Source: an uncultured Clostridia bacterium (GTDB lineage: Bacteria; Bacillota; Clostridia; Christensenellales; Borkfalkiaceae). From it: 54,868 nt of DNA. Below, in pieces: positions 1,053 through 26,973 of this stretch. The stretch lies in the NCBI GenBank assembly GCA_944368925.1, contig CALVXG010000016.1, forward strand, positions 1-54,868. Direction: 5' to 3'. The number at the start of each line of letters is the position of its first letter. Within the stretch, counting starts at the first letter, position 1. The notes beneath the pieces were generated by a model. It made no database searches. It saw nothing but the letters and a program-made list of their open reading frames with translations, and was not told the origin of the DNA. Both the position numbers and the translations under genes were made by a program.

Positions 1053-1709
1053 TTAAACCTCATCGTAGCGTTCAATTGATTTAATGAAAGGATTTTCCGC
1101 CATTATTTCCTGTAATTGTGATGAAGAATACTCATCATCCGTGTTCAACGTCGCATGATACAGCATTTCCTCACCTTTTCGCTCTATCACCAAGCGGTTA
1201 AACCGATCCGTCTGAAACAGCTCTTTCACCTTGCCGCATTCTTCACCGCCGTTCACAAAACATATTTTGATTTGAAAATACTTCTTTGTCTGAAACAGTT
1301 TACACTTCATGTGGAATAAACATTGCACAGCAATCAATATCACCGTTGCGCCTACTGCCACGACGTACAGCTCCGCTCCGGCAGCCATCCCTACACCCGA
1401 TGTAGCCCATACCCCCGCAGCAGTCGTCAATCCATGAATTTCATGCTTGCGATAGATGATAATTCCTGCTCCCAAAAAGCCTATCCCCGACACAATCTGC
1501 GCAGCTACCCGCGATGCGTCTGCCTCAATCGAATCACCGAATCCGTATTTTGACACTACCATGATCAGCGCGCTCCCCGCGCACACGATAGTATGTGTGC
1601 GAATTCCTGCCTCCTTAAACCGCAGTTTCCTCTCAAAGCCGATTGCAAATCCCAAAATGACCGCAACGAGAATGCTGATTAAATATTTTAATTCTTCAAC
1701 AGGTTCCAT
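1053..1709 (-). CDS. MgtC/SapB family membrane protein
   Basis: A 218-residue protein with about four hydrophobic segments in residues 8-135, followed by a soluble ACT-like C-terminal domain. The family signature is present near residues 20-45: GFERKLRFKEAG followed by RTHTIVCAGSALI, matching the conserved ER...R.AG.RTH pattern of MgtC/SapB proteins. Family members sit in the inner membrane and modulate Mg2+ homeostasis or ATP synthase activity under stress; the exact role here is unknown. GAGGG lies 4-5 bases before the ATG. It sits between a GH3 and a GH2 gene on the same strand, 22 bases after the GH3 stop, which is an odd place for this family; it may be carried as a passenger in the glycan locus. 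Confidence 0.85.
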   Translation of the reverse strand: MEPVEELKYLISILVAVILGFAIGFERKLRFKEAGIRTHTIVCAGSALIMVVSKYGFGDSIEADASRVAAQIVSGIGFLGAGIIIYRKHEIHGLTTAAGVWATSGVGMAAGAELYVVAVGATVILIAVQCLFHMKCKLFQTKKYFQIKICFVNGGEECGKVKELFQTDRFNRLVIERKGEEMLYHATLNTDDEYSSSQLQEIMAENPFIKSIERYDEV

Positions 1710-1731: not shown

Positions 1732-3738
1732 TCATATAATTTTGAATATACCGTTTTCCACAACGACTTTAGCAGACAAATGGCTATTCTCGCAATTACT
1801 GCCGACAATAATTTCATAGAGTCCGTCATCTATTGTCATGCGATCCTCCGCTTCTGACCAATAGGCAAAAGCAGCAAAATCCAGCCGTACTTTAACACAA
1901 ATTTTTTTGCCTGACTCAATAAAATCTTTTGACCACCCTTTCAGTTCTTTATTCGGTCGATACACCTTTGCCGCAATCGGATGCACATATACTTGACTGA
2001 CTTCTTTCCCTCCCTCATCGGAAACATTATGGATCCAATATGAAATGCACAGCGCATTTTCTTCCAATGCAAGGCTTATATTTTCATATTTGAATAACGA
2101 ATAACTTAAACCGTAACCAAACGGATAACGCACCGGAATCTGAAAAGTATCAAAATACCGATATCCGACATTTAACCCTTCCGAATAAAGCGTAACGTTC
2201 CCATTACGATACGATTGTACCGCAGGAATATCCGATAATGAATAAGGAAATGTTTCTGTCAGGCGGCCGCTCGGATTAACAAGACCGCATAAAATATCTG
2301 CTATAGCCTCTCCGCCGCGTTCGCCGCAAAAACCAGCCCACAAAATTGCCTTAACATAGGGTTCCCATGCTGTAACATCAACAACGGAGCCGGTAAATAA
2401 TATAACCACTGTGTTCGGATTTACTTTTGCCTCATCGATAATGGCGCGTTCTTGCACCTCTGGAAGACGGAGTATTTCTCTGTCCCCGCTCTCATATTCA
2501 ATGTCCGCGCCGGTTCCCGCGCAAACTATATTAACATCAGCCAAAGCCGCATTTTCGACAGCTTTCCCGGGAATCCCAAGTGTCCCGTTACCGCTCACTT
2601 CTTTCGGCAAAAAAGCACGTTCGTATAGCACTTCTGTCCCAAGCCGTGAGCCGAGAAGTGAGGCAATATCAAACGGTTGTTCAAGCCAAACCATACGCGC
2701 ACTGCCTCCGCCAAAAACCAGTGACGGCGTGGCAGGTTTACCATAACAGCCGTTAACAGCAACTTTTGCTCCTTTTCTCAAAGGGAGGATACCCTCATTT
2801 TTCAATAAAACCGCCCCCTCGCGTTCAATATCTGCCGCAAGCTCAAGACGTTCCGAAACAGAACGACGCGGTTTTTTTCCGCAGCTCATTTCCTTGCACC
2901 GATAGATAAGCTCAATTACCCTCTGCGCACAGGCATCAAGTTCCTCTTCCGTCAATATGCCGTTTTGGTAATCCTTCAAAAGCCGCTCATAATGTTCACG
3001 GTTAAACGGCATTTCAATATCCAAACCCGCTTTTGCAGAACAGGTACGATCTCGCACCGCTTCCCAATCTGAAAAAATAGCTCCTTTGAATCCAAAATCG
3101 GTTCTCAGGACTGAAAATCCCTTTTTATTTTCCGAAGCATAACGCCCGTTGATACGATTATATGAACACATTATAGAAACGGGTTCTGCTTTACAAGCAA
3201 TACGGAATGCTTCATAATAAATTTCGCGCAATGTACGAGTATCGACCTCACTCGACTGTTCGAAACGATTATACTCAAGGTTATTTGCGCAGAAATGTTT
3301 TAAGCATGCCCCGACTCCGTTTTCCTGTAAGCCCTCAATATATTCTCTTGCCATATCTCCCGCAAGATAGGGATCCTCAGAGAAGTATTCAAAATTTCGA
3401 CCGTTGCGCGGATCTCTTTTTATATTAACCCCGGGAGCAAGCAAAATATCCACCCCGTTTTCAAGACAATCATCGGCAAGCGACGCCCCCATCTCGCGCG
3501 CCAATGTACGATCCCATGTATTGGCAAGGACGGCAATCGTCGGATATGCTACCGAAGGTTTCATTACATCGGAACCGTCTTCCCTTACCGACAATACACG
3601 GCGAAGCCCGACAGGGCCATCCGATACAGTTATTTTCGGAAGTTTACCTTCTGCATTATACAAATTCCAAAATCCATCCCCACACAGCAGACGAAGTTTT
3701 TCTTCCGCCGTCAATTCTTTAACCGATATTCTCTTCAT
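1732..3738 (-). CDS. GH3 family beta-glycosidase
   Basis: A glycoside hydrolase family 3 protein of 668 residues. I chose the ATG at 3738 because GGAG lies 6 bases upstream; an in-frame ATG at 3750 would put that site inside the gene. Numbered from the upstream ATG, the N-terminal (alpha/beta)8 domain shows SDGPVGLR (43-50), KH (151-152) and the nucleophile motif FSDW (226-229, Asp228); it is followed by the alpha/beta sandwich domain and a C-terminal fibronectin-III-like domain (VSQVYVHP region). No PA14 insert and no signal peptide, so a cytoplasmic exo-acting enzyme (beta-glucosidase, xylosidase or N-acetylglucosaminidase type; sequence alone does not decide). It follows the DUF1667 gene by 45 bases and is probably in the same operon. 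Confidence 0.92.
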   Translation of the reverse strand: MKRISVKELTAEEKLRLLCGDGFWNLYNAEGKLPKITVSDGPVGLRRVLSVREDGSDVMKPSVAYPTIAVLANTWDRTLAREMGASLADDCLENGVDILLAPGVNIKRDPRNGRNFEYFSEDPYLAGDMAREYIEGLQENGVGACLKHFCANNLEYNRFEQSSEVDTRTLREIYYEAFRIACKAEPVSIMCSYNRINGRYASENKKGFSVLRTDFGFKGAIFSDWEAVRDRTCSAKAGLDIEMPFNREHYERLLKDYQNGILTEEELDACAQRVIELIYRCKEMSCGKKPRRSVSERLELAADIEREGAVLLKNEGILPLRKGAKVAVNGCYGKPATPSLVFGGGSARMVWLEQPFDIASLLGSRLGTEVLYERAFLPKEVSGNGTLGIPGKAVENAALADVNIVCAGTGADIEYESGDREILRLPEVQERAIIDEAKVNPNTVVILFTGSVVDVTAWEPYVKAILWAGFCGERGGEAIADILCGLVNPSGRLTETFPYSLSDIPAVQSYRNGNVTLYSEGLNVGYRYFDTFQIPVRYPFGYGLSYSLFKYENISLALEENALCISYWIHNVSDEGGKEVSQVYVHPIAAKVYRPNKELKGWSKDFIESGKKICVKVRLDFAAFAYWSEAEDRMTIDDGLYEIIVGSNCENSHLSAKVVVENGIFKII

Positions 3739-3783
3739 CTTTTTCTCCATTTTTTACAAGTCAAAAGTTGCAATACCGCCTAA

Positions 3784-4125
3784 TTATGCGTTTCCTGTTG
3801 CGATTAAATTGATATTTTCAGATATATGTTCTTCCAAGATATTTCCGATACAGACAGGCGGCGTCGGATGCAGTTTTTTGATCTTTTGCATCACAACGAA
3901 AATATCTTCCTTTTTCACTTCCCCGTCCGTCTTGACGGATAACATTCTGCCGTCAGTAAGCCGCACAGTGCTCGTAACGATGCGCCGAGGACAAGTCATT
4001 TCCGCTTCGGTGTACCTTTCCCCCCGCGGGCAAAAATTCCCCGTGACATTCACGCCGTTTTGTGTTGTTTCCGCCGTCAACTCACATCCTCGCGGGCATT
4101 CAATACACACAAAATTCCTTTTCAT
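3784..4125 (-). CDS. DUF1667 protein, cysteine-rich partner of a FAD dehydrogenase
   Basis: A 113-residue protein with an N-terminal cysteine cluster: Cys7, Cys10, Cys14 and Cys32 (FVCIECPRGCEL and NFCPRG), with Cys45 further on, as in DUF1667 proteins, where they probably bind a metal or Fe-S centre. In many Clostridia and Thermotogae this small protein is encoded directly after a GlpA-like and an NAD(FAD)-type oxidoreductase gene and is thought to be the third subunit of an anaerobic glycerol-3-phosphate dehydrogenase; its biochemical role is unproven. The start at 4125 is supported by GGGAGG upstream and lies one base after the stop of the preceding oxidoreductase gene, implying translational coupling. 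A longer reading from 4173 would overlap that gene by 47 bases and is unlikely. Confidence 0.88.
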   Translation of the reverse strand: MKRNFVCIECPRGCELTAETTQNGVNVTGNFCPRGERYTEAEMTCPRRIVTSTVRLTDGRMLSVKTDGEVKKEDIFVVMQKIKKLHPTPPVCIGNILEEHISENINLIATGNA

Positions 4126-4126
4126 G

Positions 4127-5362
4127 TCAGGCCTCCCGTGTAACGCTGACGCGAATGCTTTGCGCATCCGCAAAATCGGCCGCCTTTATAGTGATATTCT
4201 CCATCTCGCCGGGGGCTACCGCTATACGCTTGTATGTTTTCACCATTTCGCCCGCCTCTACACGGATCACGGCATTCCGAAAGGCGCTCCGTACACGAAA
4301 ATACAGCTTAATGTCCTTTCCCTTTCCCGCGCGCTGCGGCAAAACATATCCCACATTCTCCCCGGCCACGGTCGGGATATACACGTGTTCACTGTCGCCG
4401 TTGATAAGATACTCTGCGGCTGCCCTTCCTGCAACTTCCGCCTCTTCCGAAACAAAGTCTACAAGATCGTGCACGTGCAGCACGTTACCGCAGGCAAAAA
4501 TGCCGGAAACATCCGTCTCCCTGTTCTCGTCTACAAAACAACCCTTTGTGTGAGGATCAAGCGCAAGCCCTGTTTCCTTTGTAAGTTCGTTTTCGGGAAT
4601 AAGTCCCACCGAAAAGAGTACCGTATCGCAGGGGATCTCCCTCTCCGTACCGGGAATCGGTTGCTTTTCTTTGTCGACCTGAGCGATCACAACGCTCTCT
4701 ACTCTTTCTTTCCCTTTTATCTCCACAATCGTGTGTTCCAGGTAAAGCGGAATACAAAAATCGTCAAGGCACTGCGCGATGTTGCGCCGCAATCCGCTCG
4801 AATGTTCCATGATTTCACAGACACATTCGACCTTTGCGCCCTCCAGCGTCATGCGCCGCGCCATGATCAGCCCGATATCTCCCGAGCCGAGGATGACTAC
4901 CCGTTTCCCGGGCAAATATCCGTAAATGTTCACGTATTTCTGCGCCGTGCCTGCGGAAAACAACCCTGCCGGACGTGTCCCCGCAATGTTCAGCGCGCCC
5001 TTGCTGCGTTCGCGGCACCCCATAGCAAGAATGACCGCGCCCGCCTCTAATGTAAACACGCCGGACTCATTCATGCAAGTGACTTTTTTATCAGTCCCAA
5101 GCCCCGTTACAAAGGTGTTGGTCATAATTTCGATGCCTCGCGCGTTTACCTCGTCCAGAAAGCGCTGCGCATATTCGGGGCCCGTCATACTTTCTTTGAA
5201 ACGCGTAAGCCCGAATCCGTTATGGATACACTGTTTTAGAATGCCGCCCGCCTTTTCCTCACGTTCAATAACGACCATATCGCGCACGCCGGCATCGTAT
5301 GCCGCAACTGCGGCGGCAAGCCCTGCCGGACCGCCCCCTATAATGACAAGTTGTTTTTTCAT
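4127..5362 (-). CDS. NAD(P)/FAD-dependent oxidoreductase (glycerol-3-phosphate dehydrogenase complex type)
   Basis: A 411-residue two-dinucleotide-binding-domain flavoprotein. The FAD motif GGGPAG is at residues 9-14 and the NAD(P) motif GSGDIG at 159-164; GGILKQCIHNGFGL (39-52) is typical of the oxidoreductases paired with GlpA-like enzymes and DUF1667. The likely role is to pass electrons between a partner dehydrogenase and NAD(P), in the cytoplasm. The ATG at 5362 has AAGGA upstream and begins 11 bases after the GH78 stop; the DUF1667 gene follows by one base. The longer frame from 5449 lies inside the GH78 gene and lacks a ribosome-binding site. Usually this gene directly follows the GlpA-like gene; here a rhamnosidase-like gene separates them. 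Confidence 0.88.
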   Translation of the reverse strand: MKKQLVIIGGGPAGLAAAVAAYDAGVRDMVVIEREEKAGGILKQCIHNGFGLTRFKESMTGPEYAQRFLDEVNARGIEIMTNTFVTGLGTDKKVTCMNESGVFTLEAGAVILAMGCRERSKGALNIAGTRPAGLFSAGTAQKYVNIYGYLPGKRVVILGSGDIGLIMARRMTLEGAKVECVCEIMEHSSGLRRNIAQCLDDFCIPLYLEHTIVEIKGKERVESVVIAQVDKEKQPIPGTEREIPCDTVLFSVGLIPENELTKETGLALDPHTKGCFVDENRETDVSGIFACGNVLHVHDLVDFVSEEAEVAGRAAAEYLINGDSEHVYIPTVAGENVGYVLPQRAGKGKDIKLYFRVRSAFRNAVIRVEAGEMVKTYKRIAVAPGEMENITIKAADFADAQSIRVSVTREA

Positions 5363-5373
5363 TACGATTTCCT

Positions 5374-7662
5374 TCAGTCGTTTTCCTTCCGACGCAGTAT
5401 AAAACGATAGCCGCCTTCCGAGATCTGCGTCCCCGATTCGCTCTGCCATCCGTCCGAAAGACGCAACTCACCGTGCGTCCCCATAGGAATACGAACAAAC
5501 AATTCGATTCTGTTTTTTCCCGTCCTTTGCCACGAAGACACAACCTCTCCCTGCGGCATTGCATGATCGGCATACGCATAATCAAGCTGACTGACAAAAT
5601 AAGGCGCAATATCTACGCGATGAGGATCTTCGAATTTTTCATTGATACGGATGCCTGCAAGATACGTCATATACCAAGCGGCAATATCGCCCCAAAAATG
5701 GTGGTTCATGGATTTCAGCCGACCGACAGCAACTTTATCAGAACCAGGCTCGTGAACATGAATGAATTCCCATAAAGAAGTTGCACCGTGTTCGATCTGA
5801 TTACCGAACGAAGGTCTGTCCGGCGACATAGCTATTTCGTAGGCGAGATCGGCCTTCCCTCCTTCACACAGAACACGCAACAACGCCTGCACTCCGAGGA
5901 CACCGACGCGCATACGATTTTCGCTGCCGATAACCATCTCAATTAAAGAAAAAAGCGCCTGGTCGTATTCCTCTTTGCGGAATACGCCGCGGTAAAGCAA
6001 CTGTGCCTGCGCTGTTTGCGTGCGGCAATATGCCGTCGCTGCATTGTTCCAATCAATGAAATTTGCCCGTGCTGCTTCACGGAAAGCATGCGCCTGACGC
6101 TCTGCCGTTTCCTGCCGATCCTTCTGCCCGAGCGCCTTGAAAATGCTGGCTGCTTTATCACAGATGTCGATCGCGCTACAAGTATCGGTCACCCAATTCG
6201 GTGTATTTGCGGCAGAATCGCTTTTAGCGCCGATCTCACACCAATCGCCAAGCCCGTAACGAATGTATCCCTGTTCGTTTTTGATTGACTGTAAAAAGCC
6301 GAGGTATCGCCAAATCGCATCCGCATTTTCCCGCAAGATATCTTTATCGCCCGTATAACGGTAGATCATATAAGGCAACGCGGTAAGCACGCCGTCCCAA
6401 GTCGGACCGTTTCCCCAATCGTAACCGAACCCGCCCGTGGGGACAATGCTCGGAATTGCGCCCCTCTCGTCTTGCGCCGCGCGGATACAGGCAAGCCACA
6501 TCCGCAGTGTTTTTTTACAGTTCATAAGGAGCAAAAATTGCTCGGAAGAGAAATACGCATCCCCCGTCCAGCCGTTCTTTTCTCTGTGCGGGCAGTCGGT
6601 CGGGAAATAGTAAAAATTTGAAAAATCGCTGCGAAGCGTATTTTCAAAGGTTTGATTTGCATAGTGGTCCGAGCATTGAAAGCGAGCCGCTTTCTCAAAA
6701 CCGGAGCTTTGTTCAGACATAATGACAAGATCGCTTGTCGCTTGATCGGGAGAAATGCCTATAACCTTGGCATAGCGAAATCCGTAATAACTGAAACAAG
6801 GCGCAAAGCCCTCACCCTTTTCTCCTTTGCAAATATATATGATCGTTTGATTGTCGGGCATATGCCGTTCCATACGGCGCCAGCATTGGATATTTTTCGT
6901 ATCCATCTGTCCTTCACGCAGCCATTCCCCGCATACGAGGGTTACTTTCTGCCCCGGATTACCGTCAATTTTCAGAATAGGGATACCCGCCGTGTTCACC
7001 CCGAAATCATAAATATACCCATCCTCGGAAGGATATATTGCTATGGCGCGCCTTTTCTTATATTCTTTGATCGGTTCAAAATCAGCTAAAATCTTAACTC
7101 CTACGGGCGACGGCGCAACAAGCGCCTCTTGCCAACCGGAATCATCAAAAGACGGGGTTGCCCATTCAGATATTTCGCGCCGGGCATCATACATCTCGCC
7201 CTCCCTTAATTCATCACGGATCAGCGGTGACGGAGCCGTTTTTATCGTATCGTGCGTAGAAAAAACAACCTTTCCGTCTACTTCCACGGAAAATGCCGTT
7301 TTGGGAGCAGCGCGAAACGGTGCCTTGTCGTAATCCCACATAAACGCACCGTAAGGATTTGCAAATCCGTTGCCGAGAATCACACCGATCGCATTTTTCC
7401 CCTTTTGAAGCAAAGAAGTTATATCATATTCATCATATACGACAAAATGATCCGGACGGCAGATATACGGAGCCAAGATTCCTTTCGTGATACGCTGCCC
7501 GTTAACATATAAATCGTAAAACCCGGTCGAGGTAATTAAAATTTTTGCTTTTTGGACTTTATCTTTCAGAAAAAATACCCCGCGAAGATAAGGAGCCGGT
7601 ATTTCTCTGTCATAATCGGCATATTCTTTTGTCGCCGCTCTGAATGTGTTTTCAAATTCCAT
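5374..7662 (-). CDS. GH78 family alpha-L-rhamnosidase-like enzyme
   Basis: A 762-residue protein with the multi-domain plan of GH78: N-terminal beta-sandwich domains (GFYDLYVNGQRI, about 47-58), an (alpha/alpha)6 barrel and a C-terminal beta-sandwich. The catalytic region PTDCPHREKNGWTGD (about 354-368) carries the acidic residues Asp356, Glu361 and Asp368 in the arrangement used by inverting rhamnosidases; Trp365 is also conserved. No signal peptide, so it should act on imported rhamnosides. The ATG at 7662 has GTAAGGAG 7 bases upstream and follows the GlpA-like stop by 10 bases. Its place between two subunits of a glycerol-3-phosphate dehydrogenase set is unusual. Family membership is clear; rhamnose as the true substrate is inferred. 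Confidence 0.9.
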   Translation of the reverse strand: MEFENTFRAATKEYADYDREIPAPYLRGVFFLKDKVQKAKILITSTGFYDLYVNGQRITKGILAPYICRPDHFVVYDEYDITSLLQKGKNAIGVILGNGFANPYGAFMWDYDKAPFRAAPKTAFSVEVDGKVVFSTHDTIKTAPSPLIRDELREGEMYDARREISEWATPSFDDSGWQEALVAPSPVGVKILADFEPIKEYKKRRAIAIYPSEDGYIYDFGVNTAGIPILKIDGNPGQKVTLVCGEWLREGQMDTKNIQCWRRMERHMPDNQTIIYICKGEKGEGFAPCFSYYGFRYAKVIGISPDQATSDLVIMSEQSSGFEKAARFQCSDHYANQTFENTLRSDFSNFYYFPTDCPHREKNGWTGDAYFSSEQFLLLMNCKKTLRMWLACIRAAQDERGAIPSIVPTGGFGYDWGNGPTWDGVLTALPYMIYRYTGDKDILRENADAIWRYLGFLQSIKNEQGYIRYGLGDWCEIGAKSDSAANTPNWVTDTCSAIDICDKAASIFKALGQKDRQETAERQAHAFREAARANFIDWNNAATAYCRTQTAQAQLLYRGVFRKEEYDQALFSLIEMVIGSENRMRVGVLGVQALLRVLCEGGKADLAYEIAMSPDRPSFGNQIEHGATSLWEFIHVHEPGSDKVAVGRLKSMNHHFWGDIAAWYMTYLAGIRINEKFEDPHRVDIAPYFVSQLDYAYADHAMPQGEVVSSWQRTGKNRIELFVRIPMGTHGELRLSDGWQSESGTQISEGGYRFILRRKEND

Positions 7663-7672
7663 ATGTTTCTCC

Positions 7673-9103
7673 TTACAGTTCTCCGCCGACAATGATGCGG
7701 GAATCCCCTCCGTTTTTTGTTATCTCTTCCGCCGCCATCCCAAACTCCGTCATAAGTTCATGGAGTACGGACGGCTGGCAAAATCCGCTTTGACATCTGC
7801 CCATCCCCGCGCGTGTGCGCAGTTTTATCCCGTCCAACGTCCTTGCCGGCGGATTGCTGCGCATCGCTTCATAAATTTCTCCGAGTGTTACTTCCTCACA
7901 CCGACACACAATGTGTCCGTATGCCGCATCTTGGGCAATGACTCTATTTTTTTCTTCCGCTGAAAGGTCTTTGAACCAGTGCATACTGCGCCTTACGGGA
8001 ACGAAATCGCCGTTCTTTTTCGCGCCGAGTGCCTTTGCGACCTGTTCCGCAATATGCTCTGCAATAGCGGGAGAGGATGTAAGTCCGGGAGATTCGATGC
8101 CGGCTGCATGAAACACACCCGGCTTCCCCCATTCAAGAATAAAGTCATGACGATCACTGTATGAACGCTCTCCCGCAAACGAAGTGATCACCTGCCCGAA
8201 GGGAATTTCTTTCAGCATTGCGGAAGCCTTTTGTCGGAGTTCCGAAAAAGCGGCACGTCGAGTGGCAGTAGTATACTCATCTTCCTCCACTGACGTAGGG
8301 CCTACAAGCAAATTGCCGTCTACCGTCGGCGTGACAAGTACCCCTTTCCCCGCCTTTGTTGGTACGGAAAAGACGGTATGCTTTGCATATGTCCCCACAG
8401 ACTTGTCGAGCAGCATATATTCACCGCGGCGGAACCCTATACGAAAAAATGTATCCCCGAACAAACCTGCTACTTGTTCTGCCCCTGCGCCGGCACAGTT
8501 GACAACGATTCGCGCCGTCAGTTCATGCCCGTCTGCTGAAACAAGCTGCCAACCCGTACCCGTTTTGACTGCGCCGACCACCGTAAATCCGCACAAGAGT
8601 TCCGCCCCGTTGTCCATAGCGTTGCCCATTGCCGCGATCGTCAAACCATAGGGACAAACAATGCCGCCCGTCGGCGCGTATAAAGCCGCCGCGATACCAT
8701 CCGCAATGTGCGGCTCTTCCTCTGCAAGTTGCTCCCTCAGCATGATCTTCAAGCCTTTTACCCCGTTTTGTCTGCCCCGAAAAAGCAACTCCGGCAAAAT
8801 TCCTTCTTCCTCACACGTCCTGGCAACGACCAAAGAGCCGTTACGAATATATTTTACTCCGAGTTCGCGGCAAGTTTGTTCCATCATGGCATTGCCGATT
8901 ACATTGTATTTTGCTTTCAATGTACCGGGGACGGCATCAAAGCCTGCGTGAACAATGCCGCTGTTTGCTTTAGATGCTCCCGCCGCCACATCGGCTGCAC
9001 TTTCCAATACAACTACGGACAAATCGAATTTTTTAAGTTCGCGCGCTGCAAGCGCGCCAATCACTCCGCCGCCCACAACGGCAACGTCAAAATTTACTTT
9101 CAT
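7673..9103 (-). CDS. GlpA-like FAD-dependent dehydrogenase with [2Fe-2S] domain
   Basis: A 476-residue flavoprotein. Residues 1-390 form a DAO-type FAD domain with the dinucleotide motif GGGVIG (11-16). Residues 395-460 form a BFD-like [2Fe-2S] domain with Cys400, Cys402, Cys437 and Cys442 (CRC ... CQSGFC). This is the layout of anaerobic glycerol-3-phosphate dehydrogenases and related 2-hydroxyacid oxidases in Clostridia. With the downstream oxidoreductase and DUF1667 protein it would make a three-part enzyme oxidising glycerol 3-phosphate to dihydroxyacetone phosphate. The upstream neighbours, a glycerophosphodiesterase and an NAD-type glycerol-3-phosphate dehydrogenase, support that substrate, but a different hydroxyacid cannot be excluded. 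AAAGG lies before the ATG. Confidence 0.85.
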   Translation of the reverse strand: MKVNFDVAVVGGGVIGALAARELKKFDLSVVVLESAADVAAGASKANSGIVHAGFDAVPGTLKAKYNVIGNAMMEQTCRELGVKYIRNGSLVVARTCEEEGILPELLFRGRQNGVKGLKIMLREQLAEEEPHIADGIAAALYAPTGGIVCPYGLTIAAMGNAMDNGAELLCGFTVVGAVKTGTGWQLVSADGHELTARIVVNCAGAGAEQVAGLFGDTFFRIGFRRGEYMLLDKSVGTYAKHTVFSVPTKAGKGVLVTPTVDGNLLVGPTSVEEDEYTTATRRAAFSELRQKASAMLKEIPFGQVITSFAGERSYSDRHDFILEWGKPGVFHAAGIESPGLTSSPAIAEHIAEQVAKALGAKKNGDFVPVRRSMHWFKDLSAEEKNRVIAQDAAYGHIVCRCEEVTLGEIYEAMRSNPPARTLDGIKLRTRAGMGRCQSGFCQPSVLHELMTEFGMAAEEITKNGGDSRIIVGGEL

Positions 9104-9140
9104 ATTCCGACCTTTATAAAAAAGCTGTAAATTTTCTATG

Positions 9141-9935
9141 TCACCGAACCTCTAATGCGCGTAAAATACAGTCGCTGGTTTTGATATCGTCTACAGTAAA
9201 CATACGGGTGCCATATTCCAAAGCACGGGCATAATCGGTATATACAGCGGGCATATAGTTGCAGGGTTTAATGCCGTGTGCAACCACCGTTTCATAATCT
9301 TCACGGGGACGAACCCGACCTTCGGTATCTTTCGTCGGAAACAAGCACGCCCAATCCATATATGAAAACAGATCGCCTTCACATGTATCATGAAATAATT
9401 CAAGCGGATAATACCCGTGCAACTGAAAGCGATGCCCGTATCGCTTTCGCATATACGCAAGTAAAATCACACTCCAACTGTTAAACATAACGCGGTCATC
9501 GGAAATACCGTACTTTTCCAACATGGCGACCAATTTATCTGCCGCCTCAAAAGCGCGCTCCTCTCCCTCGTCAGCAGGATATACCTTAAATTCAAGATTA
9601 AACAAAATACCTTTATCGGCAGTAAGATCAAAAAACTCCTCCGCCGTGGGGATACGCTCGCCTGCAAACTTTTCGGAAAAGCGAATACCCGCCGAAAATC
9701 CGCGCAATTCTTCCAGCGTATAATCACGCACATATCCCGTGCCGTCCGTCGTCCTTTCCAAGGTATGATCATGGATCAGCACAAGTCTGCCGTCTTTGGA
9801 AAGATGAAAATCCGTTTCGATCATATCGACGTTGCAATCAAGCGCATAGCGGAACGCTGCCATCGTATTTTCGGGAACGACCGTGCGTTCGCCGCGGTGC
9901 CCGGACAAAATGATTTTATCGGAAAAATGTTTCAT
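9141..9935 (-). CDS. Glycerophosphodiester phosphodiesterase family protein
   Basis: A 264-residue GDPD-family TIM barrel. The family motifs are visible: GHRG (12-15, His13, Arg14), PENT (21-24, Glu22), ETD (40-42, Glu40 and Asp42) and HDHTLERTT (55-63, His55/His57); these bind the Ca2+/Mg2+ ion and do acid-base catalysis. The reaction is release of glycerol 3-phosphate from glycerophosphodiesters. No signal peptide, so it would act in the cytoplasm on imported material. It starts 9 bases after the gpsA-like stop and precedes the GlpA-like dehydrogenase, giving a plausible sequence of release then oxidation of glycerol 3-phosphate. Confidence 0.92.
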   Translation of the reverse strand: MKHFSDKIILSGHRGERTVVPENTMAAFRYALDCNVDMIETDFHLSKDGRLVLIHDHTLERTTDGTGYVRDYTLEELRGFSAGIRFSEKFAGERIPTAEEFFDLTADKGILFNLEFKVYPADEGEERAFEAADKLVAMLEKYGISDDRVMFNSWSVILLAYMRKRYGHRFQLHGYYPLELFHDTCEGDLFSYMDWACLFPTKDTEGRVRPREDYETVVAHGIKPCNYMPAVYTDYARALEYGTRMFTVDDIKTSDCILRALEVR

Positions 9936-9944
9936 TACAACACC

Positions 9945-10982
9945 TCACAAAGTATCCGTAATAAATTGATCCCACGGAATCGGGGCCTTTTCTCCCGAAA
10001 TAAGTTTGGCAACATGCGCCAGAAGCGGAAATTTTTCTGCAAGCGTTTCTTGTGAATATCTGCGTAAAAGCGCCGCATTCACCCGTTTTGCGATCACCAA
10101 CGATTCGAGAGTGACTCCTTTCAGTTTATTCAACGCCTCATCGATAGAAAGCCCTTCACCCAAAAGGATGCCGACGAGCCGCGTTCTTCCGCCATATACG
10201 GTAACGTATAAATCTCCCGCTCCGACCGGTAGCGTTGCGTCGCTGCCGGCAATCATCTTCAAAAGCTCGCGCATTTCTTTTACACCCTGCCCGAACAACC
10301 CTGCCTGCGAATTGTAATGCAGTGTTTCGTCGCCGAATGCTTTGCGGTTTGCTCCAATGGACAGTGCCACTCCGAGAGCATAACCGTTTTTAAGCGCTAC
10401 GGCAGTTTCTATGCCGAGAACATCCGTCGAAAGCGAAATATGATAGTATTCTGTTTTCATGCACGCCCGCAAAAATTCCAGCGTTTTCGGATCGTCCCCG
10501 CAGAAAGTAACGCAGGAATGATCGTGCGCGACCAATTCATAGCTGGTACAAGGACCGCCGATTGCATTGATATTCAATACTCGGCCTCTCTTTTTTGCCT
10601 CAGTCTTCCAATAATCGGGATAAGTCATGAATCCGCCGTCGGGAAGATCGAACAGCCCTTTTGTAACGGAGAGTACAGGCGTACTTTCGGGGATACGCGG
10701 CAAAATATTTTCTGCAAACCATTCCACACCGAAACTTGAAACGCCGCAGATAACAAAGTCACATCCGATGATCGCCTCGTCAACTTCTTCCAGATAATAA
10801 TATTTTACTCCCGCAGGAAACGGACGATCAAATTTGGGATGCGTATCCGTCTTTTTGCAAGCGGAAATAATATCCTTGTCAAGATGCGTACCCACCAGCC
10901 GAACTTCATGCCCGTTCTCGCGGGCAGGGAAAGCCAAAGCCGATCCCATCATACCAGATCCGATAATCGTGATAACCGCCAT
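9945..10982 (-). CDS. NAD(P)-dependent glycerol-3-phosphate dehydrogenase family protein
   Basis: A 345-residue GpsA-family enzyme. The Rossmann motif GSGMMG is at residues 8-13, SVTKG follows mid-domain, and the C-terminal all-helical domain has the conserved substrate-binding region around ALKNGYALGVALSIGAN. The reaction is interconversion of dihydroxyacetone phosphate and glycerol 3-phosphate with NAD(P)H. Canonical GpsA serves phospholipid synthesis and usually sits in a core locus; this copy lies in a catabolic glycan operon, so a role in glycan-derived glycerol phosphate metabolism is more likely. AAGGAG lies 7 bases before the ATG. I leave the symbol empty because it may be a specialised paralogue. 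Confidence 0.85.
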   Translation of the reverse strand: MAVITIIGSGMMGSALAFPARENGHEVRLVGTHLDKDIISACKKTDTHPKFDRPFPAGVKYYYLEEVDEAIIGCDFVICGVSSFGVEWFAENILPRIPESTPVLSVTKGLFDLPDGGFMTYPDYWKTEAKKRGRVLNINAIGGPCTSYELVAHDHSCVTFCGDDPKTLEFLRACMKTEYYHISLSTDVLGIETAVALKNGYALGVALSIGANRKAFGDETLHYNSQAGLFGQGVKEMRELLKMIAGSDATLPVGAGDLYVTVYGGRTRLVGILLGEGLSIDEALNKLKGVTLESLVIAKRVNAALLRRYSQETLAEKFPLLAHVAKLISGEKAPIPWDQFITDTL

Positions 10983-11012
10983 TTATTTACTCCTTCATCC
11001 TTTTATAAATTT

Positions 11013-11040: not shown

Positions 11041-11082
11041 CCGAACATTTTGAACTATAATCAGCGCTGCCTTTTACACATA

Positions 11083-13089
11083 TCATTCGTCTGCCGGAAT
11101 TCGGGAAAGCCACTTCTGAATTGTAGTTTCGTCTTTCGACAACCAAAACGGAATAACTGCTCCGTTCGCCGTATCCCAAACGGAAACAGCCCATCGCCCG
11201 GTCATTGTTGCATACTCGCCCGAAGCGGTATACGTTCCGAAATATTGTACAGAACTTTCATCTCCGGGGATCGAGAGGAATACATGGAAATTCGCACCAT
11301 TACGCACCATTGTCAGATTGACTCCGGTATCCGATTTGAAAGCGTCTGCATACTTTTTTTCATAAGAAGTTGTATCCCATTTACCCGCAGCGATCGAACT
11401 ATATCCCCAATTCGCATCAGGATACCATTCTACCCAAAGGGTATTTTCGTCATCGTTTTTCAGTTTTACGGAAGGTTGCAGCGCAATCATCGTATCGCCG
11501 AAAATATAGCGGATAAAATGACGATTGTTTTTTGTTGCCTGTGAAAGTTTGAAATTGACCGTGAATACCGAATCTCCGAATTTCTCCACCGTAACAGGGA
11601 AAAAGGCGTTCCCCGAAACATTTGTAATATACCCATCGGCATCGTTCGCATGGGAAGCATCAATCGTCGCAACGCTTGCAGTGCTGTCCGGATTCTGAAC
11701 AAATGCTGTTTTACCGAACGCGAGATCCGCAAATTCTTCCCCGCGGAATTCGATGGCTGCAATCGGCGCGTATCCTTCATACCCCTCTCCGATAAGCGTA
11801 GCGGTATAAAGTCCCGGAACGATACTGCCCTCGATTTTTCCGTCAGCACTCACGTCAAACGTATAACTCTGCGGACCGGTCAGTTGTACCGATGCGTTCT
11901 CGACAGAATTTTTTTCACCGAAATACATTTCATACACATTAGCGGTAAACGACAACGGCGTTACAGAAAGCTGCGCAAATTCCGCCTTAACCGACAGAGA
12001 CTCCGTAACTTGTTCCGCCGGTACAGTAATATATCCTTCACGCAAAGAATGATCGGTATATACAATTGAATCAGCATAGGATATTTCGTTGACTTTTATA
12101 TCGCCGACCGAATATCCTTCGTCAGCTTTAATTAGAAACGTTACCGAATTATTTGCGACAGCAAAATTATATCCGAAACGCTCCATTACTGCCCCGCCGC
12201 TGCCGGCGGAAATATCTATATCATAGGAAACAAGACCGCTTTCATTAAAATGATACCAGCCGTCGACATTTTCCCATGCACCGTTATCGAGCTGCGAACC
12301 GAACATCCACCACCACCGATCCGAATTCGAGCTCGCGCCCAAAAAATTGTAGGAAGTGATCGGCGCGGCATTCAAAAATATTTCGCCGCCGTTTCGGATA
12401 GAGTCCGCCGTTCCTTCGCCGCCTATCTTATCTATAAACTCCCACGGCAAAAACAGTTCGCATGTATATTCCGTTGCCCGCTGACTTCCTTCGGAAATCG
12501 TTGCGCCGAATTCTCCGTTGCACGTTGTTCCTAACTGCGCCATGATCGCATTCGGGGTCGGAAATTCCGCAAAACTTCCGTCCGCCGTTTTACGTTTGAA
12601 CAACAGATCGCCTGACGGCTGCATATCGATTTCACAGGCACCGACTTCATCGATGCTCGCAAGTTTTTTCGGCGCAAAATATAATTCCGTAATGCTGTTT
12701 AGCGTAGAGTTTCTGTCCGGATTCACATATATCTGTTCGCCTTCAGCCGCTTTATATTCGGTAGCAACGTAAATACCGTTCTCACCGAAAACGGTGGTCA
12801 TAGCAAAAGATGCTGCTCCGTCTATATCATTTTTTGCTCCGTCATAGGTCAAATTTTCGCTGTCCTTTTCCACCTTAACGCCACGCAGCCAACGCTGGTT
12901 CTGATACTCGGTTTCGTCGAATACACCGTCAATTACAAAACCGGCGTCCGGTCTGGCAAGCCCCTGTGCCGGCGGGTTTGTAAACGTATATTTTTCTGGA
13001 GATATTTCCTGCGCACAACCGGCAAGTATACCCACAGTGAGGCAAGCGGCGGTAAGGAGGGAAACAATAGAAAAGGTTCTCTTTTTCAT
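11083..13089 (-). CDS. Surface lipoprotein with CBM9-like N-terminal domain
   Basis: A 668-residue protein with a lipoprotein signal (MKKR start, lipobox ILAGC, Cys25). Residues about 45-250 resemble CBM9-type carbohydrate-binding domains (DAGFVIDGVFDETEY, a predicted beta-sandwich with acidic start), followed by beta-rich Ig/dockable modules (SYDIDISAGSGGAV region) and a C-terminal laminin-G-like part. I see no catalytic motif. It shares this layout with the N-terminal third of the 1340-residue lipoprotein at 22897-26919, so the two are paralogues. Probable role: capture of the polysaccharide at the cell surface for the adjacent GH43-like enzyme and importer. It lies 18 bases downstream of the GH43-like stop. 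Confidence 0.7.
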   Translation of the reverse strand: MKKRTFSIVSLLTAACLTVGILAGCAQEISPEKYTFTNPPAQGLARPDAGFVIDGVFDETEYQNQRWLRGVKVEKDSENLTYDGAKNDIDGAASFAMTTVFGENGIYVATEYKAAEGEQIYVNPDRNSTLNSITELYFAPKKLASIDEVGACEIDMQPSGDLLFKRKTADGSFAEFPTPNAIMAQLGTTCNGEFGATISEGSQRATEYTCELFLPWEFIDKIGGEGTADSIRNGGEIFLNAAPITSYNFLGASSNSDRWWWMFGSQLDNGAWENVDGWYHFNESGLVSYDIDISAGSGGAVMERFGYNFAVANNSVTFLIKADEGYSVGDIKVNEISYADSIVYTDHSLREGYITVPAEQVTESLSVKAEFAQLSVTPLSFTANVYEMYFGEKNSVENASVQLTGPQSYTFDVSADGKIEGSIVPGLYTATLIGEGYEGYAPIAAIEFRGEEFADLAFGKTAFVQNPDSTASVATIDASHANDADGYITNVSGNAFFPVTVEKFGDSVFTVNFKLSQATKNNRHFIRYIFGDTMIALQPSVKLKNDDENTLWVEWYPDANWGYSSIAAGKWDTTSYEKKYADAFKSDTGVNLTMVRNGANFHVFLSIPGDESSVQYFGTYTASGEYATMTGRWAVSVWDTANGAVIPFWLSKDETTIQKWLSRIPADE

Positions 13090-13107: not shown

Positions 13108-15078
13108 TTATCGCCCGAGTACACGGATTTCGGAAATGCCGACCGCGCTCTGTCCTTCCGGCACTTCTACCGTGATACGAACCGTCTTGATCTCGGTAAG
13201 TTCATAAAATTCAGCAAACGCAGCTGCGCCGGGCGAAACATAAGTAACGTCGCCCGTTATTTCAAGCACACTGTAATATTCAGGCGGGAAAGCGACGTTT
13301 TCCAAATAATATGTATCACCGCTTTCCGTTACAAATTCCATCCGCGAAATGTTGAGAAAAATTTCATCTTCGTGTTTGGAATTGTAGACCATGACGGCAC
13401 GGATCGACGCAGCTTGCGAAAGCGTAATTTCAAACGTAGCCGTCTTAGTAATGCGCGTTTCCTGTATATATGAATCGTAAAATCCCGGATCGCCGTTTTT
13501 ACAGACAGAAAGGAGTCCGTCGTTCACCCAATCAACGGAAGAGTTTTCTGCAAGAGCCGTTTCTTCCTGCAAAACAACCGTTGCATCGCCTGCGACATTC
13601 TTATATTTTGCATATGCCTCAATGCGTGGCTGAATGGTCGCCGTAGGCCCGTTTGCAACGAGCACATCGAGATCGTTCCCTTGATAATCTTTAATTGTAA
13701 CCCATTTCAATTCATCGATGTTGGCGTGACGAGCGCCGCCCATTGCCACAAAACTGTCGTGCGAATGGTAATAAATGAACATCTGATTCCCGATTGTAAT
13801 GATAGCATTATGCCCTGTTCCGGACATTTCTTCACTGCCTTCAAGCGCTCCCGACAGCATCCGTCCGTTTTCTTCTTCCCGTAATTTACGGAAAGCGCCG
13901 AGCGGTTCGTCTGCTATTGCCTGACAAACCTCATAAGAATTCTCGTCATAATTGTTGATCGAGAACATCATATAATATTTCTCATTATGATACACGACAG
14001 TCGCACCTTCGTTTACTTGGGTGTTGCTGTCATAACACGTTTCCCCTTCTTCGTTCTGCAAATTTTTGTTCTGATAGTCTTCGATTGTCCAGTAATTCGC
14101 CGCCGTGAGCAAAGTAAAGGTTGACCAATCAGGCTTGAGCCAACTGCTGGAACCATCCTCCACCTCATACATTTTCATTCCGACAATAAAATTTGAGGAA
14201 TCGCTTATCGTCCAATAAAGATATTTGTCCCCCGAAACAGGATCGATGAAAGGATGAAAATCAATGCTTGCTGAAAAACCTCCCCCGTCTCTGGCAGCAT
14301 CTTTCCCGACAGAAAGCCCTACACTCGCATAGATCGCAGGATCAAGATACGAATATTTTGCATAAGATTGCGGATAAGACGGGCGCCAAAGCGTAGAATA
14401 ATTTTCCTCAGTTGCCTCTACAAACGCACCGCTGTCATTTACGCCCCATATGCCGTTTTTTACATCCTCGGCCGTCAGCCTTGTATTGCCGGCCGCATTC
14501 AGATCGTGCGACCAACCCTCTTCCACAGCTTCTTTGCTCGTGAAATCGATCATTTCATACGGACCTTCGGGCGATGACGCACGGGCGATATAGGATACAT
14601 AAATTGCCGTTCCCGGCACCACTCCTTTTCCTGCCGTAAAACTGCCGTTATTCGCCGGAGTAGCACTAAAAAACATATAATAGCATCCATCGTCTTCGTC
14701 ATATATATATTCAGGGGCCCATCGGTCTTTGGCCACGGCATTTGCCTGATCGCTGCCTTTTACAAGATCGAGAGACGGACCGACAGGCTCCATCGTCATC
14801 ATGTCCGTAGAGCGATATAGCACAAATTCACCCTTTGTGGAACCGATGTAATAATACCCGCTGCGCTCCGTATCGTCCAAAACAAACGGATCGGGCCCCG
14901 GACCTTTGGACTCGTTTCTGTAAAAAAGTTCTTCGTTAAAGACCATCTTCCCATCATCGCCGACCGTTCCGCCGGAATAAAAGTCGATTTCCGTCGAAAC
15001 GGATCCTCCGCACGCCGTAAACAACATAAACGATCCAAGCACTAAAGAAGCAATGGCTCCGTATTTGATTTTTTTCAT
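13108..15078 (-). CDS. GH43-like glycoside hydrolase lipoprotein
   Basis: A 656-residue lipoprotein (lipobox LFTAC, Cys23), hence anchored outside the membrane. The catalytic part is a five-bladed beta-propeller of GH43 type: DPFVLDD near the N-terminus supplies the base Asp, DFHPFIDP a middle Asp, and VNEGATVVYH the candidate acid Glu; APEYIYDEDDGCYYMFFSA is a typical blade. The last 140 residues look like an F5/8-type (discoidin) carbohydrate-binding domain. GH43 enzymes cleave arabinose- or xylose-containing glycans and some galactans. The ATG at 15078 has GGAGGG 6 bases upstream; the longer frame from 15099 lacks one. It follows the permease gene by 24 bases. Confidence 0.85.
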   Translation of the reverse strand: MKKIKYGAIASLVLGSFMLFTACGGSVSTEIDFYSGGTVGDDGKMVFNEELFYRNESKGPGPDPFVLDDTERSGYYYIGSTKGEFVLYRSTDMMTMEPVGPSLDLVKGSDQANAVAKDRWAPEYIYDEDDGCYYMFFSATPANNGSFTAGKGVVPGTAIYVSYIARASSPEGPYEMIDFTSKEAVEEGWSHDLNAAGNTRLTAEDVKNGIWGVNDSGAFVEATEENYSTLWRPSYPQSYAKYSYLDPAIYASVGLSVGKDAARDGGGFSASIDFHPFIDPVSGDKYLYWTISDSSNFIVGMKMYEVEDGSSSWLKPDWSTFTLLTAANYWTIEDYQNKNLQNEEGETCYDSNTQVNEGATVVYHNEKYYMMFSINNYDENSYEVCQAIADEPLGAFRKLREEENGRMLSGALEGSEEMSGTGHNAIITIGNQMFIYYHSHDSFVAMGGARHANIDELKWVTIKDYQGNDLDVLVANGPTATIQPRIEAYAKYKNVAGDATVVLQEETALAENSSVDWVNDGLLSVCKNGDPGFYDSYIQETRITKTATFEITLSQAASIRAVMVYNSKHEDEIFLNISRMEFVTESGDTYYLENVAFPPEYYSVLEITGDVTYVSPGAAAFAEFYELTEIKTVRITVEVPEGQSAVGISEIRVLGR

Positions 15079-15102
15079 CAAATCCCTCCAAAAATTCAAT
15101 TT

Positions 15103-16029
15103 TTAACCCTTTACACTGCCAACCGCGATGCCTTCAATGAATAGTTTCTGTAAAAACACATAGATGACGATCAAAGGCAACATACCGAGCACAGCCGCCG
15201 CGCAATGTACGCTTTCCTGTCCGTCACCGGGGAAGATGTCCGTAATCTGCGCAAGAAACAGTTGCAGCGTGATATACTGCATATCACCGTCCAAATATAG
15301 AAGAGGCATAAGATAATTGTTATATCTCCCTACAAAGCCGAAAATAAATTGAGCGACAAATGCAGGCAGCGCCAACGGAAAAACGATCCGCACAAAAGTT
15401 CCTATCGTCGATAATCCGTCGATTCTGGCAGCTTCAATGACGGAATCCGGTATCCCCTCATAGTACATCTTCAAAAAGAATACCGTTGTCATACTTCCGA
15501 ACAATCCCGGTACAATAATCGGAAGAGGCGTACCTGTCCACCCCAGCATTGAAAAGAATGTATAAGAAATAACGCTTAAAGCTCCGAGCGGAACTGTGGA
15601 GAGGATAAAGGCAAAGCGGAACAGTTTTTCGCGTCCCGGAAATTTAATCTTTGCAAACGCGAATGCCGATAATCCGGAAACAACCAAACCGACGATAAGC
15701 GGAATAAGCGTCATCCACATCGTGTTCCAAAAACTGATCAAAAGGGTAGGCGCTCCGAGACTTTCGGCATAGATATCCCCTGTAAATATATTGCCGTATG
15801 AAGAAAATGTAAAGTTTTTCGGCCACCAAATAAATGACGTTGTGCTCGTTATTTCTTCCACCGATGTGAAAGATGTGATCAGCACAATATAAAGCGGGAA
15901 AAACAAGAGCAAAGCATACACTATCAAGACAGTTAAAATAGTGGTTTTCGATACAATATTTTTCCGTCTTTTTTGGTGCTTGTTTTTTGCACGGACAATT
16001 TCGGTCTGATTGGTTTGTACTTGTTCCAT
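15103..16029 (-). CDS. ABC transporter permease, carbohydrate type (MalG-like)
   Basis: A 308-residue inner-membrane permease with six predicted helices and the EAA-loop motif EAARIDG at residues 199-205, which contacts the ATPase. It is of the carbohydrate-uptake family 1 (MalG/LplC-like) and pairs with the upstream permease 3 bases away; GGAGG lies just before its start. No ATPase gene is present in the window, so the importer likely uses a shared MsmK-type ATPase encoded elsewhere, as is common in Bacillota. Confidence 0.92.
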   Translation of the reverse strand: MEQVQTNQTEIVRAKNKHQKRRKNIVSKTTILTVLIVYALLLFFPLYIVLITSFTSVEEITSTTSFIWWPKNFTFSSYGNIFTGDIYAESLGAPTLLISFWNTMWMTLIPLIVGLVVSGLSAFAFAKIKFPGREKLFRFAFILSTVPLGALSVISYTFFSMLGWTGTPLPIIVPGLFGSMTTVFFLKMYYEGIPDSVIEAARIDGLSTIGTFVRIVFPLALPAFVAQFIFGFVGRYNNYLMPLLYLDGDMQYITLQLFLAQITDIFPGDGQESVHCAAAVLGMLPLIVIYVFLQKLFIEGIAVGSVKG

Positions 16030-16032
16030 ACC

Positions 16033-17052: not shown

Positions 17053-17055
17053 GGC

Positions 17056-26919: not shown

Positions 26920-26973
26920 CGTCTTTCCTCCTTTCACGATTGCCTGACCATAGAGAATATTATCTCTACTATT

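Follow-up and report, generated by a model that had tools for sequence, protein, structure and literature searches.

A probable glycerol-phosphate salvage operon with a divergent GpsA paralogue and interspersed glycosidase genes in an uncultured Clostridia bacterium

The window, i.e., the whole stretch of 54,868 nucleotides analyzed here from an uncultured Clostridia bacterium (contig CALVXG010000016.1), contains a tight run of genes in which glycosidases stand among enzymes of glycerol-phosphate metabolism, which raises the question of whether the two sets serve a single pathway. The order and minus-strand orientation of the seven genes were found as given in the preliminary description, and each protein scored above the cut-off of its own main Pfam family. 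The interval given there for the run, 3738-10982, covers six of the genes and ends at the start codon of the GH3 gene, the body of which occupies 1732-3738. The run and its surroundings comprise the following features:

13108..18945, minus strand: GH43 and a CUT1-type ABC sugar importer (two permeases, solute-binding protein), the adjoining glycan unit
11083..13089, minus strand: 668-aa lipoprotein-like protein, upstream border, family-less by Pfam and NCBIfam
9945..10982, minus strand: GpsA2, divergent protein of the NAD(P)-dependent G3P-dehydrogenase family, 345 aa (PF01210 and PF07479 over cut-off)
9141..9935, minus strand: GDPD glycerophosphodiester phosphodiesterase, 264 aa (PF03009, 120 bits)
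7673..9103, minus strand: GlpA-like FAD and BFD [2Fe-2S] subunit, GlpTk-like, 476 aa (PF01266, DAO; PF04324, Fer2_BFD)
5374..7662, minus strand: GH78 alpha-L-rhamnosidase-like enzyme (four Bac_rhamnosid domains)
4127..5362, minus strand: NAD(FAD)-dependent oxidoreductase, NOX-like partner of G3P dehydrogenase (PF07992, Pyr_redox_2)
3784..4125, minus strand: DUF1667 small Cys-rich protein (PF07892, 73 bits)
1732..3738 (or start 3750), minus strand: GH3 glycosidase (Pfam GH3 match over cut-off)
1053..1709, minus strand: mgtC, downstream border gene (PF02308)

From GpsA2 to GH3 the gaps measure 9, 37, 10, 11, 1, and then 33 or 45 bases. Downstream, mgtC lies 22 bases past GH3, while upstream a gap of 100 bases is followed by the 668-aa protein (no match in Pfam or NCBIfam at E 0.001), GH43, the two ABC permeases and the solute-binding protein. 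Scans of the locus for terminators and promoters did not clearly delimit a transcript; the 100-base gap before GpsA2 contains a hairpin, but the fold of the stretch is unexceptional (z -0.71). Judged by family membership and gene order, the core of GpsA2, GDPD, GlpA, NOX and DUF1667 is most probably an operon for the salvage of glycerophosphodiesters and glycerol phosphate into which glycosidase genes have been shuffled, a reading to which we assign a probability of about 0.7.

The GlpA-like, NAD(FAD)-dependent and DUF1667 genes had been taken for an anaerobic G3P dehydrogenase set, and their arrangement bears this out, since it matches GlpTk-NOX-MOX of Thermococcus kodakarensis, for which passages of PMC11962113 describe a catalytic FAD subunit followed by a NADH-oxidase-like gene and a third gene; GlpTk is also reported from Thermotoga maritima and Clostridium perfringens. 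The assignment as GlpTk is based on gene order and domain content. The GlpA-like protein has the domain of a DAO-type catalytic subunit (PF01266, 216 bits) and its nearest solved chain is the L-alpha-glycerophosphate oxidase 4x9m, while its best NCBIfam match, the type 2 G3P oxidase, stays below the cut-off with 264 of 460 bits. DUF1667 is the third gene in every order-level cassette in which a DUF1667 match is present, and in our own assessment the protein is probably the MOX-like third subunit. The NOX-like and the small third gene are both present in the window, although GH78 keeps them from following GlpA directly. GlpA and NOX are contiguous in all 29 other order-level loci and in a second GlpA/NOX/DUF1667 set of the window genome (G000:C6). 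The GlpA of this second set is 62% identical and a GlpP antiterminator gene follows, so that the set resembles an ordinary glycerol set and is not a mere duplicate of the window locus.

The position of GH78 can be compared with the closest relative, the congener G031, where the GlpA stop codon overlaps the NOX start and GH78 is absent between them: positions 7677 and 5362 of the window correspond to the adjacent bases 1285 and 1286 of the G031 locus (L206), and the NOX gene, 91% identical, comes directly after GlpA. Both genomes have mgtC at the same spot after the cassette and, upstream, the 668-aa protein in the same place (98% identical part), while a G1PDH-like and HAD gene pair occupies the place of the window GH3 in G031. 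The G031 operon was assembled from two contigs with GlpA split across both, one of which (C125) starts with an unrelated fragment, and its GDPD adjoining GpsA2 reads in two frames. GH78 was found within none of the 29 other order-level cassettes, and no GDPD, GpsA2 or G1PDH-like gene stood within 1.5 kb of any of the 29 order-level relatives of the window GH78. On this material we reject the view that GH78 belongs to the G3P complex. By these comparisons GH78 is probably a lineage-specific insertion between the GlpA-like and NOX genes, gained here, we infer, rather than lost elsewhere.

These results bear on the idea, put forward in the preliminary description, that the whole run degrades a glycan bearing glycerol phosphate, such as a GroP-polyrhamnose or a teichoic-acid-like polymer, with GH78 and GH3 trimming the sugars, GDPD freeing G3P and the dehydrogenases oxidizing it. 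Every gene does lie in a single tight run, GDPD-family GlpQ of Bacillus subtilis cleaves wall teichoic acid according to passages of PMC7086022, and another congener, G036, has a GH78 relative adjoining a PF01663 phosphodiesterase; among the wider GpsA2 loci of other species described below, one has a GH3-GDPD-GpsA2 row (L086) and another a GH78 before GpsA2 (L114). Nevertheless, with the cassette lacking GH78 in G031 and in the 29 others, and with no link of close GH78 relatives to GDPD or G3P genes found beyond the window genome, we consider such a pathway very unlikely. No signal peptide was visible by eye on GH78, GH3 or GDPD, so the polymer would need prior cutting outside the cell, and the neighbouring GH43 and SASA esterase fit a plant glycan. 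GH78 itself has Bac_rhamnosid domains including the 6-hairpin catalytic domain, and the nearest curated family of GH3 is exo-alpha-(1->6)-L-arabinopyranosidase (537 of 1300 bits). Both seem to have joined the run locally and recently, instead of belonging to a single dedicated pathway. The glycerol-phosphate catabolic unit of the preliminary description is retained, whereas its decorated polyrhamnose, for which GH78 inside the cassette had been the mark, is not. The gene order, whose uniqueness to this genome had been named as an argument against that proposal, is unique in the material examined as far as the GH78 and GH3 positions are concerned, but not in its GpsA2-GDPD-GlpA core.

The first gene of the run had been described as a GpsA-family dehydrogenase. 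It belongs to the family by PF01210 and PF07479, but it is a divergent paralogue rather than the canonical enzyme: it matches 14 NCBIfam models, in each case with a score under the cut-off (best 101.3 bits against a cut-off of 257). In a quick tree with long branches, 104 GpsA2 and 17 canonical GpsA proteins fell on opposite sides of a branch with 100% SH-aLRT. These scores and the presence of a canonical gpsA elsewhere in the window genome (G000:C4) rule out that GpsA2 is the housekeeping GpsA. Lys198 and Asn199 are kept in 104/104 GpsA2 proteins and Asp257 in 103/104; Thr267 is present in 102/104, where 17/17 canonical proteins have Asn, and Cys145 in 103/104. We take Lys198, Asn199, Asp257 and the canonical Asn at the place of Thr267 to be catalytic positions of GpsA.

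The change from Asn to Thr267 could point to an enzyme that does not use G3P and weighs against the salvage reading. GpsA2 might then act on another phospho-polyol, released by the glycosidases or arising in sugar catabolism, while GDPD would cut a sugar phosphodiester; the conserved Cys145 and the glycosidases adjoining in the window, L086 and L114 would agree with this, and a sugar phosphodiester substrate remains compatible with the data. Still, the retention of Lys198, Asn199 and Asp257 and the recurrent company of GlpA, GlpP, GlpT-like and G1PDH-like genes make this explanation improbable. GpsA2 could also be non-catabolic, making G3P for phospholipids while GDPD recycles head groups and the operon balances the G3P pool. 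In four genomes (G056, G068, G070, G093) of a 61-genome sample of the order, GpsA2 is the only PF07479 protein and may therefore supply lipid G3P there, and 41/61 have no PF07479 match. The window genome, however, has its canonical gpsA, and genes of the G3P-oxidizing type (GlpA/NOX/DUF1667) share the run, so that we regard a non-catabolic role as rather unlikely; it partly overlaps the salvage reading, and the odds of the two need not sum to one.

The preliminary description had also interpreted GDPD with two kinds of G3P dehydrogenase as a glycerol-phosphate catabolic unit, and the recurrence of GpsA2 with GDPD in other bacteria, together with the known GlpA/NOX/DUF1667 arrangement, supports it. 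We surveyed 107 GpsA2 loci, some running to contig ends, with genes called by composition and codon models and hence approximate starts. GDPD was the commonest Pfam family among the immediate same-strand neighbours put through Pfam (16/96). An HMM built on 15 of the GpsA2-adjacent GDPDs matched 18/125 adjacent same-strand genes compared with 10/1346 other genes of the same loci (Fisher p 1e-13), and the enrichment remained once the window and its closely related loci were left out (15/119 and 9/1264). Of 23 control loci around other GpsA proteins, each about 3.5 kb long, none showed a GDPD. Against salvage, an adjacent same-strand GDPD is absent at 90/107 GpsA2 loci. The GDPD label requires at least 14 changes on the GpsA2 tree, suggesting that the pairing is not a single inherited block.

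Other glycerol-phosphate genes recur as well. GlpA/NOX/DUF1667 also adjoins GpsA2 in L057, L061, L124 and L089, in the last with the GlpP antiterminator between, and L145 (Bacteroidales) has the order GDPD-GpsA2-GDPD-G1PDH-like-GDPD-GlpT/PgtP-like-GlpA, its GlpA being over its own curated cut-off. Fe-ADH_2 genes, with AraM/EgsA as best curated match, stand next to GpsA2 in G036, L094, L138 and L145 and within the G031 cassette; an uncalibrated search found no such G1PDH-like gene in the window genome. Some glycosidases near GpsA2 count against the view that they are only cargo: in L086 a GH3, 43% identical to that of the window, forms a tight row with GDPD and GpsA2 (spaced by 13 and 27 bases), in L114, one of 80 named loci, a distant GH78 (26%) precedes GpsA2 by 93 bases, and in L047 GH77 follows GDPD. 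GH3 occurs near GpsA2 in 4/80 named loci, which by our rough estimate would not exceed expectation for GH3-rich genomes. An animal or gut site is named in the titles of 49/80 named records.

GDPD shows the marks of its family, a PF03009 match and a pattern of His, Glu and Asp metal and catalytic residues, with active-site-like His13-Arg14, Glu40, Asp42, His55 and Glu115 read off the sequence; its nearest solved chain is 2pz0. In Mycoplasma, an oxidase burns the G3P released by GlpQ. Glycerophosphodiester use in M. pneumoniae via this phosphodiesterase, which releases G3P, is the subject of PMC3178575. The window residues were compared, as a pattern only, with the list in the relevant passage of PMC7086022.

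In the salvage reading, with substrates and the direction of GpsA2 being what we infer, glycerophosphodiesters, imported or internal (e.g., the head groups of deacylated phospholipids, or pieces of teichoic acid), would be cut by GDPD to sn-glycerol-3-phosphate and an alcohol. A soluble anaerobic complex of the GlpTk-NOX-MOX type would oxidize G3P to DHAP, and GpsA2 would interconvert the two reversibly with NAD(P). This route is supported by the GlpTk-NOX-MOX-like arrangement and by GDPD being the commonest partner of GpsA2, which is a separate GPDH subfamily repeatedly accompanying glycerol-phosphate chemistry in gut bacteria. GH78, GH3 and the adjacent GH43 and ABC importer would represent a plant-glycan repertoire shuffled into or against the operon in the window lineage; the glycosidases may be co-transcribed with it, for which a shared substrate is not required.

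If the salvage reading is true, GpsA2 with GDPD would be a recognizable marker of glycerophosphodiester eating in a sizeable set of uncultured bacteria. Glycerophosphodiesters of food, of host and microbial membranes and of cell walls are, in our judgement, a little charted source of carbon and phosphorus. A more tentative possibility, to which we give well below even odds, is that GpsA2 marks an undescribed salvage module, distributed by gene transfer across Clostridia, Bacteroidales and Kiritimatiellae of the gut, in which GDPD frees glycerol phosphate, and GpsA2 and GlpTk (sn-G3P) and a G1P-dehydrogenase-like enzyme (sn-G1P) return both mirror forms to DHAP. Such bacteria could use phospholipid head groups and both teichoic acid types. 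A literature search for the gene combination, mostly outside subscription journals, turned up two papers on DUF1667 but none on the combination itself. If the salvage reading holds, the locus also illustrates that a metabolic operon may have picked up glycosidase genes only recently, as cargo, and that relatives need checking before such genes are used as substrate evidence.

Among known systems, GlpTk-NOX-MOX shares its gene order with the genome's own second copy, which has GlpP in addition. The cassette of the window differs in that GH78 lies between its first and second genes and that GpsA2 and GDPD adjoin it, and glycerol kinase is absent from the run. GpsA2 has PF01210/PF07479 and the active-site Lys-Asn and Asp in common with GpsA (closest solved chain 1txg), but lies under the curated cut-offs, forms its own clade and has Thr replacing the canonical Asn. 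AraM/EgsA G1P dehydrogenase is the top curated match of the Fe-ADH_2 neighbours, yet all five remain under the family cut-off (157-196 of 413 bits). The GlpQ/GDPD systems of M. pneumoniae (PMC3178575) and B. subtilis (PMC7086022) likewise have a phosphodiesterase freeing G3P, to which the window adds the NAD(P)-type GpsA2 and a flavin enzyme of the anaerobic multi-subunit kind.

The seven minus-strand genes of the window (contig C16 of an assembly of 2.70 Mb in 44 contigs) are borne out by the sequence in the order GpsA2, GDPD phosphodiesterase, GlpA-like protein, GH78, NAD(FAD) oxidoreductase (NOX), DUF1667 and GH3, each passing its main Pfam family cut-off, and the gaps between them are indeed short (9, 37, 10, 11, 1 and 33 or 45 bases). 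The preliminary description had begun the run at position 3738; the seven genes are present, but the body of GH3 (1732-3738) lies below that start. The run is flanked by two genes:

1053-1709, minus strand: mgtC, downstream flank of the run
11083-13089, minus strand: 668-aa lipoprotein-like protein, upstream of GpsA2

The 668-aa protein gave no Pfam or NCBIfam match, and the closest congener (G031) retains residues 260-666 alone, at 98% identity. With a GH43 gene, two ABC permeases and a solute-binding protein, it lies upstream of the run past a 100-base gap (10983-11082). This gap holds a hairpin whose outer stem has eight pairs and which lacks a clear T-run; it may act in processing or attenuation. 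Near the glycan unit, 22897-26937 encodes a surface-like protein of 1346 aa that matches SpaA/PEGA-like and InlB-type repeats. In the congener loci L158, L160 and L164, a GH78-family gene lies no more than 1.5 kb from a relative of mgtC (81-90% identical over the matched part), as if the place beside mgtC collected catabolic cargo.

The possibility that GpsA2 is the housekeeping GpsA is ruled out. The canonical gpsA of the window genome sits elsewhere and is 22% identical to GpsA2 over 257 residues, and GpsA2 scores 101 bits where the GpsA models matched require at least 202. On a quick maximum-likelihood tree, for which the program warns that long branches meet, a branch with 100% SH-aLRT separates 104 GpsA2 from 17 canonical proteins. 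The tree and its alignment omit two incomplete loci (L048 and L120), one in which no gene was called (L118) and the 6 control loci of 23 that gave no usable hit. No two of the 104 proteins are identical, and five pairs are at least 95% alike, including the window's with that of L046, the GpsA2 locus of G031. GpsA2 retains Lys198, Asn199 and Asp257, and Thr267 is present in 102/104 GpsA2 proteins at a position held by Asn in 17/17 canonical ones; we take these positions, from known GPDH structures, to be catalytic or in contact with the substrate phosphate.

GpsA2 was matched in 51 of 396 genomes sampled from the order, with at least 45% identity in 23 of them (24 places, window included) and at most 31% in the remaining 28. 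Within the genus it is present in 4 of 40 genomes, and in the phylum sample 5 of 398 match at E 1e-60, the window genome being counted in both. Among the matches listed, the nearest named relative is that of Candidatus Gallimonas merdae (class Clostridia), at 77% identity (L074). Since GpsA2 is the sole PF07479 protein found in G056, G068, G070 and G093 (loci L070, L057, L063 and L062), it may serve lipid synthesis in these genomes. In a sample of 61 genomes from the order, 41, many of them >95% complete, gave no PF07479 (GpsA) match; 30 of the 41 have a GlpA-like match (one weak).

To characterize the company of GpsA2, 107 loci were compared, comprising the window, 26 loci from other genomes and 80 named loci, the best 80 of at least 198 relatives. 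GDPD is the commonest Pfam family among immediate same-strand neighbours (16 of 96 genes of at least 100 aa at gaps of at most 150 bases, window and L046 omitted), followed by Metallophos (7). With an HMM derived from 15 GpsA2-locus GDPDs, an adjacent same-strand GDPD was detected in 17/107 loci versus 0/23 control loci around other GpsA proteins, which extend only 1.5 kb each side. Among called genes, GDPDs account for 18/125 adjacent same-strand genes and 10/1346 others (Fisher p 1e-13, related loci not being independent), or 15/119 and 9/1264 when the window and its close kin are excluded. Since adjacent GDPDs served as its training set, the HMM may exaggerate this contrast somewhat, a fault of which the Pfam count is free. 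On the GpsA2 tree, the GDPD label, carried by 17 loci, requires no fewer than 14 changes. As 90 of the 107 loci have no adjacent GDPD, the link is recurrent and not universal. In the Kiritimatiellae/Lentisphaerae records L106, L134 and L141, GpsA2 occurs with a GDPD-like gene with a secreted-like start (judged by eye) and a calcineurin-like phosphoesterase (L106 alone was run individually against Pfam), a further sign of diester chemistry.

Other glycerol-phosphate genes also accompany GpsA2. The GlpA/NOX/DUF1667 set adjoins it in the window, L057, L061 and L124 and, by inference, in G031; in L089, GlpP intervenes. Fe-ADH_2 genes that match G1P dehydrogenase best among curated families, with every score under the cut-off, adjoin GpsA2 in L047 (of G036, the second congener) and, on the opposite strand, in L138, and lie near it in L094 and L145; one stands inside the G031 cassette, and L107 and L111 have such a G1PDH-like gene by HMM only. 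The Bacteroidales locus L145 reads GDPD, GpsA2, GDPD, G1PDH-like, GDPD, GlpT/PgtP-like transporter and GlpA, the last exceeding its curated cut-off (734 versus 425 bits). A GlpT/PgtP-like transporter also occurs with GpsA2 and GDPD in L128.

The position of the glycosidases was compared with G031, whose GpsA2 is 98% identical to that of the window. There, contig C69 carries part of the 668-aa protein, GpsA2, GDPD and the N-part of GlpA, and C125 carries the C-part of GlpA, NOX (91%), DUF1667, a G1PDH-like gene, a HAD phosphatase and mgtC; the comparison is weakened by the division of the GlpA gene between two contigs, by an unrelated fragment at the start of C125 and by a GDPD that reads in two frames. 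On C125 the GlpA stop and the NOX start overlap, and because the window bases flanking GH78 align to the neighbouring C125 bases 1285 and 1286, GH78 is an exact gene-sized difference. In 29/29 other GlpA loci of the order (the best-scoring from 260 matching genomes), NOX follows GlpA without room for an intervening gene. Given this and the exact difference from G031, it is likelier that the window lineage gained GH78 than that the gene was lost many times. GH3 occupies the place of the G1PDH-like and HAD genes of G031. In L046, one ORF (4186-5622) joins a solute-binding N-part to a SASA esterase C-part, each similar to a separate window protein, which suggests either a fusion through deletion or a join made in assembly.

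In G036, GpsA2 and GDPD are accompanied by the G1PDH-like gene and GH77; on a separate contig, a GH78 relative (two pieces, 63% and 54-55%, one stop) is flanked by a HAD gene and a PF01663 phosphodiesterase, with mgtC adjacent. No GDPD, GpsA2 or G1PDH-like gene was found within 1.5 kb of the 29 order-level GH78 relatives; the flanks of one of them gave a weak NOX-like match (25%, 47 bits). Near GpsA2, GH3 occurs in 4 and GH78 in 1 of the best 80 of at least 198 loci, as raw counts within the sampled stretches. Glycosidases do stand beside GpsA2 outside the window's genus: in L086 (2236-6091, Tyzzerella) a GH3 gene, whose product shares 43% identity with that of the window, is followed by GDPD and then GpsA2 at spacings of 13 and 27 bases, and GH78 (26%) ends 93 bases before GpsA2 in L114 (2487-6371, uncultured Clostridiales).

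Use of plant glycans would suit the GH78, GH3 and GH43 enzymes, the esterase and the ABC importer. Their tie to glycerol phosphate is one of position, which is not conserved in the congeners examined. The proposal that the locus degrades a glycan bearing glycerol phosphate, for example polyrhamnose, and burns the released G3P is not supported, and keeps a low probability. For the core genes, the catabolic reading was right in kind, as GpsA2 recurs with GDPD and GlpA/NOX/DUF1667 matches a G3P dehydrogenase arrangement. Most likely, GDPD would free sn-G3P from glycerophosphodiesters within the cell, and the GlpTk-type complex and GpsA2 would convert it to DHAP. PMC7086022 describes a GlpQ that acts on sn-glycero-3-phosphoryl groups, whether in head groups or in wall teichoic acid, and leaves intact lipoteichoic acid, which has the mirror form, uncleaved. 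This restriction to one mirror form makes the recurring G1PDH-like gene suggestive, and some GpsA2 operons may handle both forms; an uncalibrated search for this gene in the window genome was negative. Literature searches yielded no description of GpsA2 as a GPDH subfamily, and it is worth an assay.

Pfam assigns DAO and BFD [2Fe-2S] domains to the GlpA-like protein, and G3P oxidases are its nearest relatives among curated families and solved chains, with a score under the curated cut-off. A second GlpA/NOX/DUF1667 set of the window genome, on contig C6, is 62% identical in GlpA, uninterrupted and followed by a G3P-responsive antiterminator, and looks like the ordinary glycerol set. In its arrangement, the window's set is the same as GlpTk with NOX and MOX in PMC11962113, where the Thermococcus proteins form a complex in vitro and GlpTk relatives are noted in Thermotoga maritima and Clostridium perfringens; we infer that DUF1667 is the MOX subunit. 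The parts are known, and the arrangement is new.
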